A DNA stretch of 64,000 nucleotides, taken from NCBI RefSeq assembly GCF_002744755.1, contig NZ_KZ319294.1:1-64000 (forward strand). Direction: 5' to 3'. Positions 15,738 through 52,985 of the stretch are shown here, piece after piece. This DNA is from Leeuwenhoekiella nanhaiensis (GTDB lineage: Bacteria > Bacteroidota > Bacteroidia > Flavobacteriales > Flavobacteriaceae). Position 1 is the stretch's first letter, and every line of letters begins with the position of its first letter. The translations under genes were made by a program, and so were the position numbers. A model generated the notes under the pieces. The model was not told the DNA's origin. It worked only from the letters and a program-made list of their open reading frames with translations, and did no database searches.

Positions 15738-15810
15738 CACGGGTTGAGAGGCTCGAACTCCCGACACCTGGTTTTGGAGACCAGTGCTCTACCAACTGAG
15801 CTAAACCCGT
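15738..15810 (-). tRNA. tRNA-Trp(CCA)
   Basis: A 73-base cloverleaf on the minus strand: acceptor ACGGGTT/AACCCGT with discriminator G, anticodon stem CTGGT and ACCAG with loop CTCCAAA, giving anticodon CCA. CCA is not encoded. It lies between tuf and secE, where E. coli has no tRNA. Confidence 0.97.
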
Positions 15811-15908
15811 ATCAAGCCTTATCGGCTTTGGTAATTGATTATAAAAATCAAGGCATCCGTAGTCTTAACGGACGCCTTAATTTTATATACTTCGGTAATC
15901 CGTACTTA

Positions 15909-17096
15909 TTAGTCTAAGATTTCAGTAACCTGACCAGCACCTACGGTTCTACCACCTTCACGTATTGCGAAACGAAGACCTACGTTCATCGCGATTGAGT
16001 TAATCAACTCAACAGTGATCGTAAGGTTATCTCCCGGCATTACCATTTCTACTCCATCAGGAAGAGAGATGTTACCAGTTACGTCAGTTGTACGTACGTA
16101 GAACTGTGGACGGTAGTTATTGTGGAATGGAGTGTGACGACCACCTTCTTCTTTCTTAAGGATATAAACCTCAGCTTTGAATTTAGTGTGTGGCTTCACA
16201 GAACCCGGCTTAACGATTACCATACCACGAGAGATTTGAGTTTTCTCAATACCACGCAATAGGATACCTACGTTATCACCAGCCTCACCTCTATCTAATA
16301 TCTTACGGAACATTTCAACCCCAGTTATAGTAGAAGTAAGTTTTTCTGCACCCATACCAATGATCTCTACAGGATCTCCGGTGTTAGCAACACCAGTTTC
16401 AATACGACCAGTTGCAACAGTACCACGACCAGTAATAGAGAATACATCTTCGATAGGCATTAGGAATGGCTTATCAACGTCACGAGCAGGAAGTTCAATC
16501 CAGCTGTCAACAGCTTCCATAAGCTCAAGAACTTTTTGCTCCCACTTATCTTCACCATTAAGAGCACCTAAAGCAGAACCCTGAACAACAGGACCATTGT
16601 CTCCGTCATACTCATAGAAGCTAAGAAGATCTCTTACTTCCATCTCTACAAGCTCTAAAAGCTCCTCATCATCAACCATATCCACTTTGTTCATGAAAAC
16701 AACGATACGAGGAATACCTACCTGACGACCAAGAAGGATGTGCTCACGAGTTTGTGGCATAGGACCATCTGTTGCAGCAACAACAAGGATAGCTCCGTCC
16801 ATCTGAGCAGCACCAGTTACCATGTTTTTCACATAATCCGCGTGACCTGGACAATCAACGTGCGCATAGTGACGGTTAGCAGTTGAATACTCTACGTGAG
16901 AGGTGTTAATAGTAATACCTCTTTCTTTCTCCTCAGGAGCGTTATCAATAGAGTCAAAGCTTCTTAATTCAGAAAGACCTGCTCTTGCAAGTACAGTGGT
17001 GATAGCAGCAGTCAAGGTAGTTTTACCGTGGTCAACGTGCCCTATAGTACCAATATTTAAGTGAGGTTTGGAACGATCAAATGTTGCCTTTGCCAT
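15909..17096 (-). CDS. tuf: Elongation factor Tu
   Basis: A 395-residue GTPase that delivers aminoacyl-tRNA. GHVDHGKT is at residues 19-26, the DCPGH motif at about 81-85 and NKVD at about 136-139. Domains 2 and 3 are complete, ending [17 protein letters not shown]. It lies in the tRNA operon between tRNA-Thr(GGT) and tRNA-Trp. It is the only tuf in the window. Confidence 0.99.
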
Positions 17097-17237
17097 GATT
17101 TAAATAATTTTTAATCTTAGTTATTATTAGTGTTTAATTTTAAACGCACCTGATACGCCGGCCATGGTTTTACCCAAACGCAAAAAATTGAGCACACAAA
17201 GCACTCATTATTTCTTTACCAGCAGTTACTGCTATTG

Positions 17238-17309
17238 AGCCAACGACGGGATTTGAACCCGTGGCCTCTTCCTTACCAAGGAAACGCTCTACCCCTGAGC
17301 TACGTCGGC
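17238..17309 (-). tRNA. tRNA-Thr(GGT)
   Basis: A 72-base cloverleaf: acceptor GCCGACG/CGTTGGC, anticodon stem TTTCC/GGAAG with loop TTGGTAA, anticodon GGT, T loop TTCAAAT. It precedes tuf, as thrT does in E. coli. Confidence 0.96.
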
Positions 17310-17471
17310 TTAGAAACTTATACCCTTAATTGCGACCGAAGTCTGCATTACCCGGGCTGACCTCTTCAGCTAAAGGGCTTAATAGTTCATTACTATGAAC
17401 CGCAACCAAAGCCTATCAGATTTGGTTTAAGAATTCAATAAAAACGCTCTTAAAAAGAACATTTTATTTTG

Positions 17472-17544
17472 AGCGGGAGACCGGGTTCGAACCGGCGACA
17501 TTCAGCTTGGAAGGCTGACGCTCTACCAACTGAGCTACTCCCGC
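17472..17544 (-). tRNA. tRNA-Gly(TCC)
   Basis: A 73-base cloverleaf: acceptor GCGGGAG/CTCCCGC, anticodon stem TCAGC/GCTGA with loop CTTCCAA, anticodon TCC. Third gene of the tRNA cluster, about 160 bases before tRNA-Thr(GGT). Confidence 0.97.
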
Positions 17545-17591
17545 ATTGGGCGGCAAAATTATAAAAAAATTATAAGTTGCCAAAATAAAAG

Positions 17592-17674
17592 TGGGGAGAG
17601 CAGGATTCGAACCTGCGAAGTCTAATGACAACAGAGTTACAGTCTGTCCTCGTTGGCCGCTTGAGTATCTCCCC
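17592..17674 (-). tRNA. tRNA-Tyr(GTA)
   Basis: An 83-base class II tRNA with a long variable arm: acceptor GGGGAGA/TCTCCCC, discriminator A, anticodon stem ACAGA/TCTGT with loop CTGTAAC, anticodon GTA. Confidence 0.97.
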
Positions 17675-17769
17675 AATATTGGTATATTCAGTATTTCAAA
17701 AAACGCACAACCGTCGGCGTTTTGCGCAAGCTTAAAAATCCTAATCGATTTTAAAACTCTAAAATTATG

Positions 17770-17843
17770 AGCCGATGAAGGGACTCGAACCCCCGACCCC
17801 GAGATTACAAATCACGTGCTCTAGCCAGCTGAGCTACATCGGC
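17770..17843 (-). tRNA. tRNA-Thr(TGT)
   Basis: A 74-base cloverleaf: acceptor GCCGATG/CATCGGC, anticodon loop TTTGTAA, anticodon TGT. The anticodon stem CGTGA/TCTCG has a U-U mismatch at its third pair, and the T stem contains two G-U pairs. It is the first gene of the tRNA-tuf operon. Confidence 0.93.
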
Positions 17844-46235: not shown

Positions 46236-47027
46236 ATGAAACCTTCTAACCAACCCTCCTCACAAGACCGAAAACTCGGGAAAGAAGAAGAACAACTGCT
46301 TGACGAACTGGGTATTTTTGGCCAGTCGCGGCGTACGTTTCTCAATCAAATGTCTGCTGCGGGAATAAGCCTTATGGCGGTCCCCTATTTTACATCAGAC
46401 GTGTTTGCCCAGGCACCTAAAGCTCCCGATCTGGACCCCGAAAGTTTACTCAATGCCCTTGAGGTGAACCTAAAAATAAATGGCGACACCTATCCTTTAC
46501 AGGTAGATTCGCGTATGACCTTACTGGATGCCCTGCGCGAACGCTTAAACCTTACCGGTTCTAAAAAAGGATGCGATCACGGTCAGTGCGGGGCGTGCAC
46601 CGTGCTTATTGACGGCAAGCGAAAACTATCCTGCCTTACCTTATCTGCGACCTGCAAAGACAAAGAGATTACCACAGTAGAGGGTCTTGCTCAGGGAACA
46701 GGTTTGCATCCCGTGCAGGCAGCTTTTCTCAAACACGATGGTTTTCAATGCGGGTATTGCACTCCGGGACAAATTTGCTCAGCAGTTTCCTTACTAGATG
46801 AAGCCAAACGTGGCGAGGTGAGTTATGTAACCGAAAATGTAAAAGACGAAGTGACCCAGCTGTCTGACAAAGAAATCAGAGAGCGTATGAGCGGTAACAT
46901 CTGCCGCTGCGGGGCTTACAACAATATTGTACAGGCCATTCAGGAAGTACATTCCGGCAAAGCCGAAATGCCACGCTGGGAATTTGCTACAGAACAAGAA
47001 CTAGAAGCCAGCAGGACTGCTGAATAA
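46236..47027 (+). CDS. Tat-exported 2Fe-2S subunit of aldehyde oxidoreductase, PaoA-like
   Basis: A 263-residue electron-transfer subunit. A twin-arginine signal S31-R-R-T-F-L36 precedes a hydrophobic stretch, so the complex is folded in the cytoplasm and exported. The plant-type 2Fe-2S domain has C113, C118, C121 and C133, and the second cluster has C172, C175, C223 and C225 (FQCGYC, NICRCGA). With the next two genes it forms the same three-subunit plan as E. coli PaoABC (YagTSR), a periplasmic molybdenum aldehyde oxidoreductase. A 30-residue segment before the last Cys pair (RGEVSYVTENVKDEVTQLS) matches the PaoA subtype. Confidence 0.9.
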   Translation: MKPSNQPSSQDRKLGKEEEQLLDELGIFGQSRRTFLNQMSAAGISLMAVPYFTSDVFAQAPKAPDLDPESLLNALEVNLKINGDTYPLQVDSRMTLLDALRERLNLTGSKKGCDHGQCGACTVLIDGKRKLSCLTLSATCKDKEITTVEGLAQGTGLHPVQAAFLKHDGFQCGYCTPGQICSAVSLLDEAKRGEVSYVTENVKDEVTQLSDKEIRERMSGNICRCGAYNNIVQAIQEVHSGKAEMPRWEFATEQELEASRTAE

Positions 47028-47042
47028 CCAAAAAATCAACTT

Positions 47043-48032
47043 ATGAGACCTTTTCAATTCCATAGTCCGTCAAACGCTGCTGAAGCCCTACAAAAACACT
47101 CGCGAGATCAGAAGACCCATTATCTGGGAGGTGGCACCAACCTCATCGATCTGATGAAAGAAGATGTGGAGCGACCTGATCATTTAATTGAGGTTGCAGA
47201 TCTTCCGTTTAAAGAAATTACCCAAACCGCAAACGGTGGCTTGATGCTGGGCGCTACCCTGAATAATACCGAAACTGCAAATCACAAACTGGTACGTAAA
47301 AACTACCCGCTTCTTACGATGGCGATGCTTTCCGCAGCTACTGAACAAATACGTAATATGGCTACCAATGGTGGCAATTTGCTGCAGCGTACGCGATGCC
47401 CTTACTATTTTGAAACCTCGATGCCCTGTAACAAACGCGAACCCGGTTCTGGTTGTGGAGCGTTGAACGGAGCAAACAGCAAGAGCGCCCTATTTGGCTG
47501 GAGTGAGTCTTGTGTGGCTACCCACCCTTCTGATATGTGTGTAGCTTTGGCCGCTCTTAATGCTAAAGTGCACGTGGGACAGGCAGATGGCAGCTCACGG
47601 GTGATCCCTTTTACCGAATTTCACCGCCTGCCGGGTGATCAACCTGAAAAAGATACGAATCTTGAAACCGGCGAACTCATCACCGGCATCGAGTTGCCAG
47701 AATCTGAATTTCCCGATCATTACTACTATTACAAAGTACGCGAGCGCAGCAGTTATGCTTTTGCGCTGGTCTCTGCGGCAGTAGGCTTACAAATGCAGGG
47801 AAATACGATTACCAAAGCCGGACTGGCTCTGGGTAAAGTAGCCCACAAACCCTGGAAACTCGAAAATGTGGAGCGCTATTTAGAAGGAAAAGAAGCAAGC
47901 CTTTCCACTTTTGAAGCAGCAGCTGACCTTGCTTTTGAAGATGCGCAGCCCCTTTCAAAAAACGAGTACAAAATAGAATTAGGTAAAAAAACATTGGTGC
48001 AGGCACTCGTACGTGCAGCGGCACGTAGTTAA
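47043..48032 (+). CDS. FAD-binding subunit of aldehyde oxidoreductase, PaoB-like
   Basis: A 329-residue FAD subunit of the xanthine dehydrogenase family. The FAD loop LGGGTNLIDLM is at about 28-38 and NMATNGGNLLQRTRCPYY at about 105-122. Four Cys, 119, 129, 138 and 157, lie in an insert like the one that binds an extra 4Fe-4S cluster in E. coli PaoB. It starts 15 bases behind the first gene and ends 9 bases before the large subunit. No export signal; it would be carried by the Tat signal of its partner. Confidence 0.9.
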   Translation: MRPFQFHSPSNAAEALQKHSRDQKTHYLGGGTNLIDLMKEDVERPDHLIEVADLPFKEITQTANGGLMLGATLNNTETANHKLVRKNYPLLTMAMLSAATEQIRNMATNGGNLLQRTRCPYYFETSMPCNKREPGSGCGALNGANSKSALFGWSESCVATHPSDMCVALAALNAKVHVGQADGSSRVIPFTEFHRLPGDQPEKDTNLETGELITGIELPESEFPDHYYYYKVRERSSYAFALVSAAVGLQMQGNTITKAGLALGKVAHKPWKLENVERYLEGKEASLSTFEAAADLAFEDAQPLSKNEYKIELGKKTLVQALVRAAARS

Positions 48033-48041
48033 ACATATAGT

Positions 48042-50213
48042 ATGGAAACGAAAACAAAAACCGGCATCGGAAATCCCATCAGCAGGCTTGAAGGCAATCT
48101 TAAAGTGATGGGCAAAGCCAAATACTCATCTGAATTCAGCTTTGAAAATCTGGCTTTCGCTCAGGGAATTCAAAGCACGATCGCTTCAGGAAGAATAACG
48201 GCGATTGATACATCTGAAGCTGAAAAACAAGAAGGGGTGCTTAAAATCATCACCTATCAAAATGCACTAGAACTCAAAGGCTATAATGGCCGGTTTGAGT
48301 CGCCCAGCACAAAGGGTATTTCCCCAAGTTTACAAACTCCGGAAGTTCACTTTTACGGGGAATACATAGGCGTTGTCGTTGCCGAAACCTTTGAGCAGGC
48401 ACGCTATGCGGCAAATCTCATCAAGGTAACCTACGCCGAAGACCAGCACCAAACCAACTTTGAAGAGCATTTAGATTCGACTTATAAACCCGATAAAGCA
48501 AACGGAAACCCTGCTGATACCAGCTGGGGCGATCTGGAGGCGGGACTCAACCAAGCTGCCGCGAAAATCGATGTTACCTACAACACCCCTATAGAACACC
48601 ATCATCCAATGGAGCTACACAATATTATTGCAGTTTGGGAAGGCGATAACGTGACTGCCTATGCTTCAACCCAAATGGTTGAAAATGCCGTGACCACCAT
48701 TGCCGAAACCTTCCAGATGCCCAAAGAAAATGTTCGGGTTATAACACCTTACGTGGGTGGCGGTTTTGGATCTAAACTGCAATTACGCGAGCACGCCACG
48801 CTGGGTATTATGGCTGCAAAAATGGTGGACTGCCCCGTACAACTTACGGTTACGCGCCACGAGATGTTTACCGCAATAGGTTTTAGACAGCACAACCGGC
48901 AGCGTATGCGTCTGGGAGCAGATCAAGACGGAAACCTCACGGCTGTGGGTCATGATACCACTTCGCACACCTCCTTTACCGAAGAATTTCAGGAAACCTG
49001 TGGTTTGATGACGCGTATGTTATACAAAACACCCAATTCGCTGGTGACGCACCGGTTGATGAAGTTAAATCTGCCGTCTCCCCGCTGGATGCGCGCGCCG
49101 GGAGAAGCACCGGGAAGTTTCGCTCTCGAGTCTGCAATGGATGAACTGGCACACGAACTCGGAATGGACCCCGCTGAATTGCGAATTCAAAACGATACGC
49201 AGGTTGATCCCAGCAACGACAAGCCCTTTTCCTCACGACAATTGGTAGAATGCATACGCATTGGGGCCAAAAAATTTGACTGGAAAAACAAATGGAATCC
49301 AAAACCCGGGCATACCCAAAAAGACAACTGGATGGTGGGTTACGGAATGAGCGCCTCCTCACGTGCCGCGCCCTATTTAAAAAGTTCGGCGGAAGTCACT
49401 TTAAAACGCGATGGAGATGCAGTCACAGCTGTATTGAAAACGGATGCCACAGACATTGGCACCGGAACCTATACCATTCTGGGACAAACCGTCGCCGAAA
49501 CGCTTAACCTCGACATCAAAGACGTGCAGGTAGAACTGGGAGATTCCAAATTTCCGGTGAGCCCCGGTTCTGGTGGTTCATGGGGAGCGGCATCTTTCGC
49601 AAACGGTACCCGCGAAGCCTGCATAAATGCGATTAACAACCTCAAAACGCTGGCCAGCACCGATGAAGATTTAACGGTTGCCGAACTAATGAAACAAGCC
49701 GAACTTAATGAGCTTACCGCAACAGGTACGGCCGCTCCTACCGAAGAGTTTGACGATTACTCGGTGTATTCTTTTGGAGCTAATTTTTGTGAAGTTTGGG
49801 TAGATAAAGACACGGGTATGGTGCGTCTGGAGCATTTTGTAAATGTGGCCTCGGCAGGTAAAATCCTCAATCCTAAAACCGCTTACGGGCAAATCATAGG
49901 CGGAATCACCTGGGGAGTAGGTCAGGCCCTTACTGAACATAGTGAGGTAGAACCCAATCACGGGAATTTCATCACCCGCTCGTTTGCAGATTACCATGTG
50001 CCGGTAAATCTGGATCTGGGCAAGATCGATGTGGTTTTTGTACCCGAAGAAGATTATATCGCAAACCCTATGGGCGTTAAAGGTATTGGCGAACTGGGCA
50101 TCACCAGTATTGCTGCAGCCATTGGCAATGCCGTTTTTAATGCTACGGGCAGACGCGTGCGGGATTTACCCATCACCCCGCAAAAAGTAATCACCACTCC
50201 CGTGACTGCTTAA
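48042..50213 (+). CDS. Molybdenum-binding subunit of aldehyde oxidoreductase, PaoC-like
   Basis: A 723-residue catalytic subunit of the xanthine oxidase family. The N-terminal a/b hammerhead begins GNPISRLEGNLKVMGKAKY; YVGGGFGSKL (about 236-245), WMRAPGEAPGSFALES (about 347-362), and the C-terminal GVKGIGELGITSIAAAIGNA with the catalytic Glu in GELG are present. It oxidises aldehydes or N-heterocycles with water; the substrate is unknown. No XdhC/PaoD-like maturation protein or cofactor gene is in the window. Confidence 0.92.
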   Translation: METKTKTGIGNPISRLEGNLKVMGKAKYSSEFSFENLAFAQGIQSTIASGRITAIDTSEAEKQEGVLKIITYQNALELKGYNGRFESPSTKGISPSLQTPEVHFYGEYIGVVVAETFEQARYAANLIKVTYAEDQHQTNFEEHLDSTYKPDKANGNPADTSWGDLEAGLNQAAAKIDVTYNTPIEHHHPMELHNIIAVWEGDNVTAYASTQMVENAVTTIAETFQMPKENVRVITPYVGGGFGSKLQLREHATLGIMAAKMVDCPVQLTVTRHEMFTAIGFRQHNRQRMRLGADQDGNLTAVGHDTTSHTSFTEEFQETCGLMTRMLYKTPNSLVTHRLMKLNLPSPRWMRAPGEAPGSFALESAMDELAHELGMDPAELRIQNDTQVDPSNDKPFSSRQLVECIRIGAKKFDWKNKWNPKPGHTQKDNWMVGYGMSASSRAAPYLKSSAEVTLKRDGDAVTAVLKTDATDIGTGTYTILGQTVAETLNLDIKDVQVELGDSKFPVSPGSGGSWGAASFANGTREACINAINNLKTLASTDEDLTVAELMKQAELNELTATGTAAPTEEFDDYSVYSFGANFCEVWVDKDTGMVRLEHFVNVASAGKILNPKTAYGQIIGGITWGVGQALTEHSEVEPNHGNFITRSFADYHVPVNLDLGKIDVVFVPEEDYIANPMGVKGIGELGITSIAAAIGNAVFNATGRRVRDLPITPQKVITTPVTA

Positions 50214-50286: not shown

Positions 50287-50757
50287 TCAATGCAGGCCCA
50301 GCAGGCGTGCGATTATAACCAGTTGCCCCAGATGATAGGCATTGTGTTCTATAGCCAGCATCAATTCGCGTAAAATTTGTTGTTTTTCGCCGTGTTTGGC
50401 AATGCCGAGCAAATCGGTTTCCGGGTTTTCTATAAAGGCTATTAGGGCGTTTCGGTCTTTAAAAAAGTCCTGTTTTAAGGCCTGCCAGTCTTCTTTGGTC
50501 TCAGCTGTTTTTTCAGAAGGCCAGTAATCTTTTGGCCAGGAAGGTGTTTTGTAGCTGTCTGCAGTGCAAAAATCAAGCAAATCGCGCTGTGCATAGAACA
50601 TATGGTAAAACACCTCGTAAAACGAATACGGTAATCCCACAGGACGCTCGCCTATTCGCTTGTATTTTATTTTTTCAAGCAGATCTTCAACCGGCATAAA
50701 AGCTTCACCCCCTTTCAGGTGTTTCAGCAATTGTGCCTTAATTGCTGCGGCCTGCAT
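50287..50757 (-). CDS. DinB-like metal-binding protein
   Basis: A 156-residue four-helix DinB/YfiT-type protein. Probable metal ligands are His in VFYHMFYAQRD (about 50-60) and in LAIEHNAYHLGQLV (about 134-147). DinB-family members include thiol transferases that use bacillithiol or similar thiols; no substrate is evident. Its ATG overlaps the stop of the upstream small gene as TAATG, so both are translated from one mRNA. Confidence 0.87.
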   Translation of the reverse strand: MQAAAIKAQLLKHLKGGEAFMPVEDLLEKIKYKRIGERPVGLPYSFYEVFYHMFYAQRDLLDFCTADSYKTPSWPKDYWPSEKTAETKEDWQALKQDFFKDRNALIAFIENPETDLLGIAKHGEKQQILRELMLAIEHNAYHLGQLVIIARLLGLH

Positions 50758-50933
50758 TAGACCCTTCCTTTTAAGGCATTAAACACCCAGGCGATTGCAA
50801 AAAAGCCCAGGCCTACCGAGGCAAATCCCCAGCCGGCAATCTCATTGTATCTAAAGGCTCCCAAAGCAATCAGGGCCAGCCCTTCCACAATCATAATAAA
50901 TGTGGCCCAGCCTAATACCGTATTTTTATTCAT
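50757..50933 (-). CDS. Small two-span membrane protein, function unknown
   Basis: A 58-residue protein, MNKNTVLGWATFIMIVEGLA, with two hydrophobic segments (about 6-26 and 35-52) and a basic end ALKGRV. A second ATG precedes the first by one codon (50936). Its stop overlaps the DinB start codon (TAATG), which supports translation and co-expression with DinB. Confidence 0.72.
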   Translation of the reverse strand: MNKNTVLGWATFIMIVEGLALIALGAFRYNEIAGWGFASVGLGFFAIAWVFNALKGRV

Positions 50934-50953
50934 CATTTTAAGTTCAATTTTGT

Positions 50954-51085
50954 GGGCGTATCACCCCGCGCCAAGCTCGGGTGACCGGGCTATACGCTGT
51001 ATCTTTTTTAAAAGGCTCAATATACCAAACTTTATAGAAACGCAAACTGCCTTTTAAAAAAGGATGCCGCTGCTATCCCTTACGC
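50954..51085 (-). repeat. Structured intergenic element, copy A
   Basis: A 132-base element read on the minus strand: GCGTAAGGGATAGCAGCGG, hairpin 1 (14 perfect pairs, 51049-51062 with 51003-51016, 32-base loop), AGCGTATAGCCCG, hairpin 2 (TCACCC 50979-50984 with 50961-50966 as GGGTGA), ACGCCC. The same skeleton with other stem sequences recurs at 51263-51345. The skeleton resembles a dispersed element of Flavobacteriia genomes that may be the Flavo-1 RNA motif; I could not check this. Confidence 0.7.
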
Positions 51086-51262
51086 TCAACAATCTGCTGC
51101 TCCAGACTTGTATAACTGCTTATAATGCAGGTATTTATTTGAGTAATTTAAGCAAAACCAAACTAAAGTGCACCATAGGGTGTCAATTTTAAAGACTTCT
51201 TAACCAAATTAGCACACGGGATAACGGCAACGTTTTCGTATTTTCGTCAATCTTATAATCCC

Positions 51263-51345
51263 GCGTTAGGGATCAAAGCAAGTTACCCGCCCTCAGGCGG
51301 GTAACGCTGCGAGCCCGACCCGCACCTCAAGTGCGGGTAACGCCC
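51263..51345 (+). repeat. Structured intergenic element, copy B
   Basis: An 83-base element on the plus strand: GCGTTAGGGATCAAAGCAAG, hairpin 1 (TTACCCGCC 51283-51291 with GGCGGGTAA 51296-51304), CGCTGCGAGCCCG, hairpin 2 (ACCCGCAC 51318-51325 with GTGCGGGT 51331-51338), AACGCCC. It ends 11 bases before the carboxylase ATG, so if transcribed it lies in that mRNA's leader. It is inverted relative to copy A. Confidence 0.75.
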
Positions 51346-51356
51346 AAAACATACGA

Positions 51357-52985
51357 ATGGACATCAAATTCAATAAAAACGAGGACCACAATAAATTGCT
51401 GGTTTCTGACCTTAAAAGACGTTTTGCTCAGGTTAAACTGGGAGGCGGCGAAAAGCGCATCGCTAAACAACACGCCAACGGGAAACTTACCGCCCGCGAA
51501 CGCATCGATTTTTTACTGGATGATCCTGAAGAGGCCCTTGAGATTGGTGCTTTTGCCGGGGAGGGTATGTATGAAGAACACGGCGGTTGCCCCAGTGCCG
51601 GGGTGGTGGTCAAAATAGGTCACGTGAGTGGAAAGCAATGTATCGTAGTGGCTAATGACGCTACGGTAAAGGCCGGTGCTTGGTTTCCCATCACGGCCAA
51701 AAAGAACCTGCGCGCTCAGGAAATCAGTATTGAAAACCGTTTGCCCATTATTTATTTGGTAGACAGCGCGGGCGTATACCTGCCGATGCAGGATGAGATT
51801 TTCCCCGATAAGGAGCACTTTGGGCGCATATTTAGAAACAATGCCGTGATGAGCAGTATGGGCATCACGCAGATTAGCGCAGTAATGGGCAGCTGTGTGG
51901 CCGGCGGGGCGTACCTGCCTATTATGAGCGACGAGGCGATGATTGTAGATAAGACCGGAAGCATCTTTCTTGCCGGAAGTTATCTGGTTAAAGCCGCGAT
52001 AGGTGAAAGCATTGACAACGAGACTCTGGGCGGCGCAACCACGCATTGCGAGATCAGCGGCGTAACCGACTACAAAGCCGAAGACGATAAAGACGCACTC
52101 TCTAAAATCAAAAACATTATGTCAAAAATCGGGGATTTTGACAAGGCCGGTTTTAACCGCGTCAAGACAGCCAAGCCTAAAGAAGACCCCCAGGATATTT
52201 ACGGATTGCTCCCCCACAAACGCAGCGATCAGTACGATATGACCGAAATTATTAAACGTCTGGTTGACGGTTCGGAATACGAAGAATACAAAGCAGGCTA
52301 CGGCCAGACCATCATTACCGCTTATGCCCGTATTGACGGCTGGGCGGTAGGTATTGTCGCCAACCAGCGTAAGATTGTGAAGACTAAAAAAGGGGAGATG
52401 CAGTTTGGTGGCGTGATCTACAGTGACAGCGCCGACAAGGCTACCCGCTTTATTGCCAATTGCAATCAGAAGAAAATTCCGCTGGTGTTTTTACAGGATG
52501 TTACCGGCTTTATGGTAGGCAGTAAAAGTGAGCATGGCGGCATTATAAAAGACGGGGCAAAAATGGTGAATGCGGTAAGTAATAGTGTTGTGCCCAAGTT
52601 TACGGTGGTCATAGGCAACTCGTACGGCGCCGGTAATTATGCGATGTGCGGCAAGGCTTACGACCCCAGGCTCATCGTCGCCTGGCCTTCCGCAGAACTC
52701 GCGGTAATGAGCGGTAACAGTGCGGCTAAGGTATTGCTGCAGATCGAGACCGCTTCACTTAAAAAACAGGGTAAAACAATTACTCCTGAAGTAGAACAGG
52801 AGCTTTATGATAAAATCAAAGCCCGTTATGATGAGCAGGTTTCGCCGTATTATGCGGCTTCCCGCCTCTGGACCGATGCTATCATTGATCCGTTGGAAAC
52901 CCGAAGCTGGATCTCTGGAGGTATTGAGGCTGCCAACCACGCTCCTATTGAAAAAAAGTTTAATTTGGGGGTGATACAGGTCTAA
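51357..52985 (+). CDS. Acyl-CoA carboxylase carboxyltransferase (beta) subunit
   Basis: A 542-residue biotin-dependent carboxyltransferase of the propionyl/methylcrotonyl-CoA carboxylase type. The crotonase-like halves are seen: YLVDSAGVYLPMQDEIFPDKEHFGR and GSCVAGGAYLPIMSDE in the first, FLQDVTGFMVGSKSEHGGIIKDGAKM and GNSYGAGNYAMCGKAYDPR in the second. The YLPMQ.E.F.D form points towards the methylcrotonyl- or geranyl-CoA type used in leucine or isoprenoid breakdown. The biotin carboxylase/BCCP subunit is not adjacent. The start at 51357 lies immediately behind structured element B. Confidence 0.92.
   Translation: MDIKFNKNEDHNKLLVSDLKRRFAQVKLGGGEKRIAKQHANGKLTARERIDFLLDDPEEALEIGAFAGEGMYEEHGGCPSAGVVVKIGHVSGKQCIVVANDATVKAGAWFPITAKKNLRAQEISIENRLPIIYLVDSAGVYLPMQDEIFPDKEHFGRIFRNNAVMSSMGITQISAVMGSCVAGGAYLPIMSDEAMIVDKTGSIFLAGSYLVKAAIGESIDNETLGGATTHCEISGVTDYKAEDDKDALSKIKNIMSKIGDFDKAGFNRVKTAKPKEDPQDIYGLLPHKRSDQYDMTEIIKRLVDGSEYEEYKAGYGQTIITAYARIDGWAVGIVANQRKIVKTKKGEMQFGGVIYSDSADKATRFIANCNQKKIPLVFLQDVTGFMVGSKSEHGGIIKDGAKMVNAVSNSVVPKFTVVIGNSYGAGNYAMCGKAYDPRLIVAWPSAELAVMSGNSAAKVLLQIETASLKKQGKTITPEVEQELYDKIKARYDEQVSPYYAASRLWTDAIIDPLETRSWISGGIEAANHAPIEKKFNLGVIQV

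Follow-up and report, generated by a model that had tools for sequence, protein, structure and literature searches.

The Flavo-1 motif of Leeuwenhoekiella nanhaiensis belongs to a cross-phylum family of three-way junctions with a possible role as single-stranded DNA initiation signals

Introduction

Two inverted copies of a structured element share one intergenic region of Leeuwenhoekiella nanhaiensis, and the question raised by this locus is what these elements are and whether they act as RNA or as DNA. They lie in a stretch of 64,000 nucleotides (nt) of contig NZ_KZ319294.1 (assembly GCF_002744755.1, positions 1 to 64,000), the whole of which is called the window here. A preliminary description, made from the letters of the window, took the elements for a structured RNA and named the Flavo-1 RNA motif or a REP-like (repetitive extragenic palindromic) family as candidates. 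Flavo-1 is among the motifs listed in the text available to us of Weinberg et al. 2010 (PMC2864571); our literature search found no functional study of it, and in the papers found it has had, since 2010, a computational description but no function. Our analysis identifies Flavo-1 as the Bacteroidota part of a cross-phylum family, which is also found on conjugative plasmids and phages and folds as a three-way junction with a covarying closing helix.

Results

Fold and assignment of the two copies

Folded as DNA, copies A and B both form a three-way junction in which a closing helix (P1) is followed by an unpaired A, a first hairpin domain (P2), a second hairpin (P3), the closing strand of P1 and a trailing CC. 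P2 is built from GGG, one mismatch, two base pairs, an internal loop, a stem and hairpin 1, while P3 is hairpin 2. Copy A reads GCGTAAGGGATAGCAGC ... AGCCCG, hairpin, TACGCCC on the minus strand and copy B reads GCGTTAGGGATCAAAGC ... AGCCCG, hairpin, AACGCCC on the plus strand. Matches were scored with the Flavo-1 model of Rfam (RF01705, gathering score 42 bits, searched with cmscan) and with R1, a covariance model of P2 for which 38 elements from Bacteroidota and Spirochaetes served as the training set. The parts of the two copies are listed below.

50954-51085, minus strand: copy A, whole element (P1, P2 with the Flavo-1 core, P3 and CC), from the Rfam match and the DNA fold
51081-51085, minus strand: copy A, 5' strand of P1, GCGTA, complementary to TACGC at 50956-50960
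50987-51079, minus strand: copy A, P2 domain GGGAT...AGCCC, the Flavo-1 core (model R1, 24.4 bits, E 0.00088; RF01705 at 50979-51090)
50961-50986, minus strand: copy A, P3 region including hairpin 2, from the DNA and RNA folds; the Rfam match reaches its first bases only and does not model P3
50956-50960, minus strand: copy A, 3' strand of P1, TACGC, followed by CC at 50954-50955
51263-51345, plus strand: copy B, whole element with a compact P2, from the sequence and the DNA fold
51263-51267, plus strand: copy B, 5' strand of P1, GCGTT, pairing with AACGC
51269-51316, plus strand: copy B, P2 domain GGGATC...GAGCCC; the pattern match spans 51268-51316
51318-51338, plus strand: copy B, P3 hairpin ACCCGCACCTCAAGTGCGGGT, from the sequence and the DNA fold
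51339-51343, plus strand: copy B, 3' strand of P1, AACGC, followed by CC at 51344-51345

Both copies stand where the preliminary description had put them (A on the minus strand from 51085 to 50954, B on the plus strand from 51263 to 51345), and their head-to-head placement is borne out, A being directed at a minus-strand gene at 50936 and B at a plus-strand gene at 51357. With its 5-bp closing helix P1, hairpins P2 and P3 and trailing CC, the full unit is larger than the Rfam model. The Flavo-1 identity holds for copy A, which scores 49.5 bits against RF01705 (50979-51090, minus strand); copy B has no RF01705 match even at E up to 1 and belongs to the family by its architecture only. The description of the stems as 14 A/T pairs in A and nine G/C pairs in B needs correction: an inverted-repeat finder returns a perfect pair of 14-nt arms for hairpin 1 of copy A, but the arm is not purely A/T because it ends in GGC, and the stem of B has 10 bp. 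It had also been suggested that copies be counted across the genome, a lack of further copies or of covariance being named as grounds for doubt. Neither lack was found: the genome carries 18 Flavo-1 matches at E<=0.001, with 12 matches over the cut-off, and covariation in the family is strong.

As single-stranded DNA copy A folds with a z-score of -3.2 and copy B with -7.6; as RNA the values are -1.8 and -6.2. The skeleton GCGTNAGGGATNNNAGCN, followed by 8 to 38 letters and AGCCCG, matches copy B alone in the window and none of 100 shuffles; it passes over copy A because the loop of A exceeds the length of the pattern. Model R1 finds copy A (E 0.0009) and matches 100 of 295 genomes, in 51 of 156 genera, of the class of the source organism.

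Covariation across the family

The pairing of P1 was tested in two sets of elements, in both cases at positions that the search patterns leave free. The first set held 134 elements found with core patterns at loci of the genus and its relatives, with 18 distinct 5' five-mers. An exact P1 complement lies within 75 nt downstream for 13 of the 18 five-mers, against a mean of 1.0 and a maximum of 4 in 500 swapped-element controls, and in 11 of the 18 the complement is followed by CC (control mean 0.2, maximum 2). The five-mers without a complement are CTAGC, TTAGC and ATAGC, of a second Flavo-1 type with another closing helix, together with ACGTT and GAGTT. The second set came from a core-pattern scan of genome contigs, which gave at least 117 stretches, 80 of them listed, and 97 distinct elements for counting. 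ACGCC follows within 100 nt in 87 of the 97 and is absent from 10, while the 100 nt upstream, taken as a control, hold it in 3. The fifth pair of P1 is Watson-Crick in 86 of the 87 elements, where the margins predict 37.6; for the second variable pair of P2 the figure is 94 of the 97, with 40.4 expected. Among viral matches an exact P1 complement is present in 36 of 63, in kinds that include GGCTC/GAGCC, GTGTT/AACAC and GCGGC/GCCGC; 17 of the 27 without one lie inside open frames of at least 200 residues.

Chromosomal copies and their arrays

At least one Flavo-1 match was found in 26 of the 40 genomes searched, and the number of matches ranges from 1 to 81 within a single genus. In the copy-rich congeneric genome G007 the 5' arm is matched 79 times and the 3' arm 96 times, for a total of 102 distinct copies. 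A look there for an autonomous parent bearing the element at both ends showed 23 of the 96 3' arms to be without a 5' arm inside 70 nt and 5 of the 79 5' arms to be without a 3' arm; such a parent may still exist. Many of these copies are arranged in tandem, one every 113 to about 310 nt (L051-L059, L347), and the spacers within the printed arrays are themselves repeated. At one G007 locus (L062; G007:C2, about 1943540-1943620) the loop of hairpin 1 is inverted relative to near-identical siblings, as if flipped between the stem arms, and at three others (L057 1999, L067 1741 and L070 1223) a variant has part of its 5' arm swapped for other sequence.

Spread to other phyla, plasmids and phages

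Seven of the contig stretches come from outside the Bacteroidota (Spirochaetaceae, Treponema, Brucella, Devosia, Nitratireductor, Xanthobacter and a Rhizobium plasmid). P1 is exact in three of these loci, contains one G-T wobble in another three and is unpaired in Devosia (L263). Three of 16 core-pattern loci pass the RF01705 threshold (L217 of Spirochaetaceae, L223 and L224), and five alphaproteobacterial ones (L260, L263, L269, L307 and L329) lie below it.

Searches of plasmids by blastn with copy B and with a Flavobacterium-like copy gave no match; the link to plasmids was made with an alphaproteobacterial copy. A 102-nt copy from the genus Brucella, used as a blastn query against 72,556 plasmids, matches 2538 of them, 2466 over at least 80% of the query length, and 1834 of the 2538 records are typed as conjugative. 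In five plasmid stretches the element occurs at 7 places in a Salmonella IncN plasmid, 5 in an E. coli IncN plasmid (one of just 25 nt), 2 in an IncF plasmid, and 5 and 1 in two Massilia plasmids; the record of Massilia H6 holds 5, and the first 45 kb, which were examined, contain one. All 20 places are on one strand per plasmid. This appears to be the strand that enters the recipient first as single-stranded DNA. Its direction was read from the relaxase and the mostly uniform orientation of the leading genes in the E. coli IncN and Massilia plasmids, from the leading genes alone in IncF and by likeness in the unannotated Salmonella IncN plasmid; for F the direction of T-strand entry was assumed. 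The two IncF copies lie in modules that are 93% identical over 624 columns and about 5.5 kb apart, one of them upstream of ssb. These modules contain a very large stem-loop, as seen in the one of the two that was folded, and at their far end lies the element, as a GC-rich fold of its own.

Four pattern scans of IMG/VR returned 6, 14, 17 and 34 contigs, with overlap, and a reversed-pattern control that was one base less specific returned 2 contigs, compared with 14, 17 and 34 for three forward patterns. Three small contigs with the element are Microviridae by PF02305. A phage collection gave two matching records, both of Dulem viruses, and one of the two, the inovirus Dulem virus 63, bears the 3' half of the element on its plus strand.

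On eight phage contigs, two of which are the same virus, a single large gene stops 60-94 nt from the far end of the element, which is on the opposite strand (L351, L352/L354, L355, L372, L377, L380 and L384), and on a further contig with such a gene the element is 5.9 kb away. The gene looks like a putative terminase, a weakly supported assignment from protein matches; a terminase link in double-stranded DNA phages is no more than noted, one of five proteins having a PHROG terminase match (E 5.5e-6) and none of the five a Pfam match.

The phiX174 primosome assembly site

A strict descriptor of the P2 core was defined as three base pairs, a purine-purine mismatch, two base pairs, GAAGC, a loop, GC, one or two nucleotides, GA and the matching pairs. 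In phiX174 it has a single match, at 2308-2351 on the viral (plus) strand, and it matches none of 400 first-order Markov resamplings of that genome; there is none in G4 or alpha3. The same descriptor recovers 11 of the 12 IncN places and the one Massilia copy tried. We take phiX174 2308-2351 to be the 44-nt n' hairpin bound by PriA. The word AAGCGG, presumably the PriA consensus, was considered as a shared PriA word and dropped, for the family keeps GAAGC but not CGG. A hairpin of phiX174 single-stranded DNA called n'-PAS is bound by PriA according to the available text of PMC7290993. The likeness to phiX174 makes a strong lead, not a case of homology. Relatives of the phiX174 hairpin also occur on 2.5-kb MOBV plasmids of Citrobacter and Klebsiella (L366 and L368), with a compensated change of CC/GG to CT/AG beside the GA loop.

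The locus in Leeuwenhoekiella

The copies are flanked by the following features.

51357-52985, plus strand: carboxyltransferase gene of acyl-CoA carboxylase type (PF01039, E 4.5e-146), its ATG 13 nt past P1 of copy B
50757-50936, minus strand: gene for a small protein of 59 residues, its start 19 nt past P1 of copy A; no Pfam family
51239-51246, plus strand: TATTTTCG, a promoter -7-like box with a putative promoter role

Upstream of the carboxyltransferase gene TTTCGTATTTTCG is present in all 13 genomes of the genus, and copy B lies downstream of the TATTTTCG box, which is likewise kept in 13 of 13; a TAnnTTTG promoter consensus is quoted in PMC9723704. As judged by eye in the printed 188-426 nt upstream of this gene, copy A is present in 6 of the 13 genomes and copy B in 6, and in one genome (G006) the upstream neighbour looks different. 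In a midpoint-rooted tree of the carboxyltransferase gene, A and B each occur in both main clades and are therefore probably ancestral, with several losses. G005 has a short junction at the site where its close kin G009 and G003 carry A. The stems are alike among the near species G000, G002 and G004, and almost wholly rewritten in G001, G009/G003 and G007/G012, with core and pairing kept; Leeuwenhoekiella parthenopeia (L251) has copy B with the same letters as the relative G004. The compact B pattern is found in 6 of the 13 genomes, once in each and at this locus only.

Elsewhere in the window, a cluster of five transfer RNA genes occupies 15738-17843 on the minus strand, and three plus-strand genes at 46236-50213 read, from their translations, like the iron-sulfur, FAD and molybdopterin subunits of an oxidase of xanthine-dehydrogenase type.

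Discussion

The explanation that we put first for this family, and hold tentatively, is that it is a single-stranded DNA initiation signal. Under this proposal the strand that carries the element would be exposed by conjugal entry, by infection with a single-stranded DNA phage or at a stalled fork and would then fold; a host replication protein would recognise the internal loop of P2 and begin synthesis of the complementary strand there. The best candidate for this reader would be the PriA primosome, on the model of the phiX174 n' site, with another priming enzyme as a further possibility. The active form would accordingly be single-stranded DNA, and a replication role for the chromosomal copies of the window would extend the proposal by analogy. 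The placement on one strand in plasmids, the occurrence in single-stranded DNA phages and the antisense and convergent chromosomal copies favour DNA. The pairing that led the preliminary description to a structured RNA is upheld by covariation; RNA as its nature is not established, because either RNA or single-stranded DNA would covary in this way, and the settings on plasmids and phages speak for DNA. Flavo-1 matches are described in the available text of PMC9723704 as indistinctly sense or antisense to transcribed regions, with many in none, a remark that we count against the RNA reading. Taken to its full extent, the argument would make Flavo-1 not an RNA family but the chromosomal, multi-copy arm of a set of folded single-stranded DNA initiation signals, which we regard as rather doubtful; equally doubtful to us is its companion claim, that these signals are akin in design to the phiX174 assembly site and common to conjugative plasmids, single-stranded DNA phages and the chromosomes of Bacteroidota, Spirochaetes and Proteobacteria.

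A number of observations weigh against a single-stranded DNA signal. By position, copies A and B look like 5'-leader elements. Their complementary strands fold too (z -2.5 and -6.0 as DNA, -3.5 and -4.3 as RNA); both strands thus fold well, and therefore folding energy alone cannot pick the active one. Six of the seven P2 pairs are invariant in alignment A1, and model R1 has no match to copy B at E up to 1. On the plasmids, 2412 of the 2538 records have their best match at 60-80% identity, often with E about 0.002, the IncN and IncF copies are weak matches to R1 (E 0.03-0.09), and the element alone folds poorly as DNA in IncN (z +0.46) and weakly in IncF (z -1.6). Two of the three Microviridae carry the element in the sense of the capsid gene, and the third carries it on the opposite strand. 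The chromosome of G007 shows no replichore strand bias: 28 of 48 clustered loci follow one rule (p 0.31), with p 0.25 and 0.46 at other clustering distances and 30 of 51 (p 0.26) in a hand count, the turning point of the replichores being guessed from sampled GC skew. As for phiX174, the strict descriptor was finalised after its sequence had been seen, misses both IncF copies and, slightly widened, finds nothing in ColE1, which we take to have PriA sites; a relaxed descriptor matches once each in phiX174, G4 and ColE1. Trained on Bacteroidota and Spirochaetes, R1 has no match at the phiX174 site, and the likeness is therefore one of architecture, not of sequence.

The main rival to a single-stranded DNA signal is a role for A and B as cis-acting 5'-leader RNA elements, which would be transcribed, adopt their fold shortly before the start codon and adjust the stability or translation of an mRNA, that of the carboxyltransferase for B and of the small protein for A. 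We consider this possible, if doubtful. Copy B sits in sense, with the box shared by the 13 genomes on one side and the start codon on the other, and in each of the six carriers exactly 13 nt separate the end of its P1 from the ATG, despite differing spacer letters and, in distant species, differing stems. Together with the once-per-genome pattern this spacing makes the strongest case for B as a leader element, and it favours RNA at this one locus. Copy A is also in sense and ends 15-19 nt before the start of its gene in 6 of 6, and the available text of PMC9723704 reports several structured 5' transcribed regions that coincide with Flavo-1 matches. Set against this are the absence of B from 7 of the 13 genomes and the placement of the family elsewhere: in G007, 34 of 56 counted copies have convergent neighbours and 2 have divergent ones, and outside G007, 33 of 78 copies are antisense to both neighbours, the 15 divergent cases there being mostly this one locus, counted in several species. 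These contexts come from a home-made gene caller, with orthologous copies counted several times. The DNA and leader readings may both hold, should a DNA element already in place have been co-opted as a leader.

Selfish REP-like repeats, that is, mobile structured DNA without a host function, spread by a recombinase and by tandem duplication, would account for the 102 distinct copies of G007, many of them near-identical and in tandem arrays, for the preference of these copies for convergent intergenic regions and for a copy number that varies from 1 to 81 within one genus. We think them unlikely all the same. Across the genus, orthologous copies A and B have kept their pairing through the rewriting of their stems, which suggests selection, and no transposase partner was found: mobilisation by a REP-associated tyrosine transposase (RAYT) was rejected after Y1 transposases had been searched for in 40 genomes and 30 fetched loci, scanned with three core motifs, had shown no link, none of the 30 carrying the core. 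No Y1 gene passes the cut-off in the copy-rich genomes G007, G015, G017 and G025, while G028 and G018 have one. Of the REP-like label in the preliminary description, the multi-copy and intergenic character survives, and the REP/RAYT system, for want of a Y1 transposase partner, does not. A folded recombination site comparable to integron attC seems to us scarcely credible. Arrays do exist in G007, and the terminal GCGTTAGG and AACGCC look like attC boxes; the letters of P1 are, however, free to vary provided they pair, and the printed G007 arrays hold repeated spacers, not different cassettes. A trans-acting small RNA, the type under which Rfam files the family ('Gene; sRNA'), is highly improbable in view of its many copies in one genome, which face either way and have unrelated loops, and of the many Flavo-1 matches outside transcribed regions in the available text of PMC9723704.

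The three-way-junction extension and the plasmid and phage links give Flavo-1 a concrete, testable function. If true, a role as single-stranded DNA would explain why expression data gave no clue to it, and would let bioinformatics reach the signals that prime incoming single-stranded DNA in different phyla.

Comparison with known systems

Copy A and the Flavo-1 model of Rfam are alike in the P2 core and the pattern of the internal loop, with the gathering score passed; RF01705 spans P2 and a few flanking bases, and P1, P3 and the trailing CC lie outside it. Like the family, REP sequences and bacterial interspersed mosaic elements (BIME) with their RAYT are multi-copy, intergenic and palindromic, whereas the family has a larger fold and no RAYT partner was found for it among the genomes and loci searched. 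The Frpo/ssi single-strand promoters of the F leading region are, in the available text of PMC9849209 and PMC11541004, single-strand signals on the entering strand, as the element may be. Frpo1 and Frpo2 are given there as 92% identical and about 5 kb apart, with Frpo2 upstream of ssb (PMC9849209), and the IncF modules that carry the element fit them; unlike Frpo, a sequence of 328 bp as published whose hairpin restores the -35 and -10 boxes, the element has no such boxes by eye, no promoter scan having been run. In the IncN leading region the CUP sequences (Delver and Belogurov 1997, as cited in PMC6289460) are repeated, as the element is, and are described in the available text of PMC6289460 as binding sites of ArdK. 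A parallel in design is the phiX174 n' site, which resembles the family in its three base pairs, one purine-purine mismatch, two base pairs, tandem GA/GA and AGC-type stem, and departs from it in other pair letters and in showing no P1-closed P3; copy B itself has AA/GC where GA/GA stands in phiX174.
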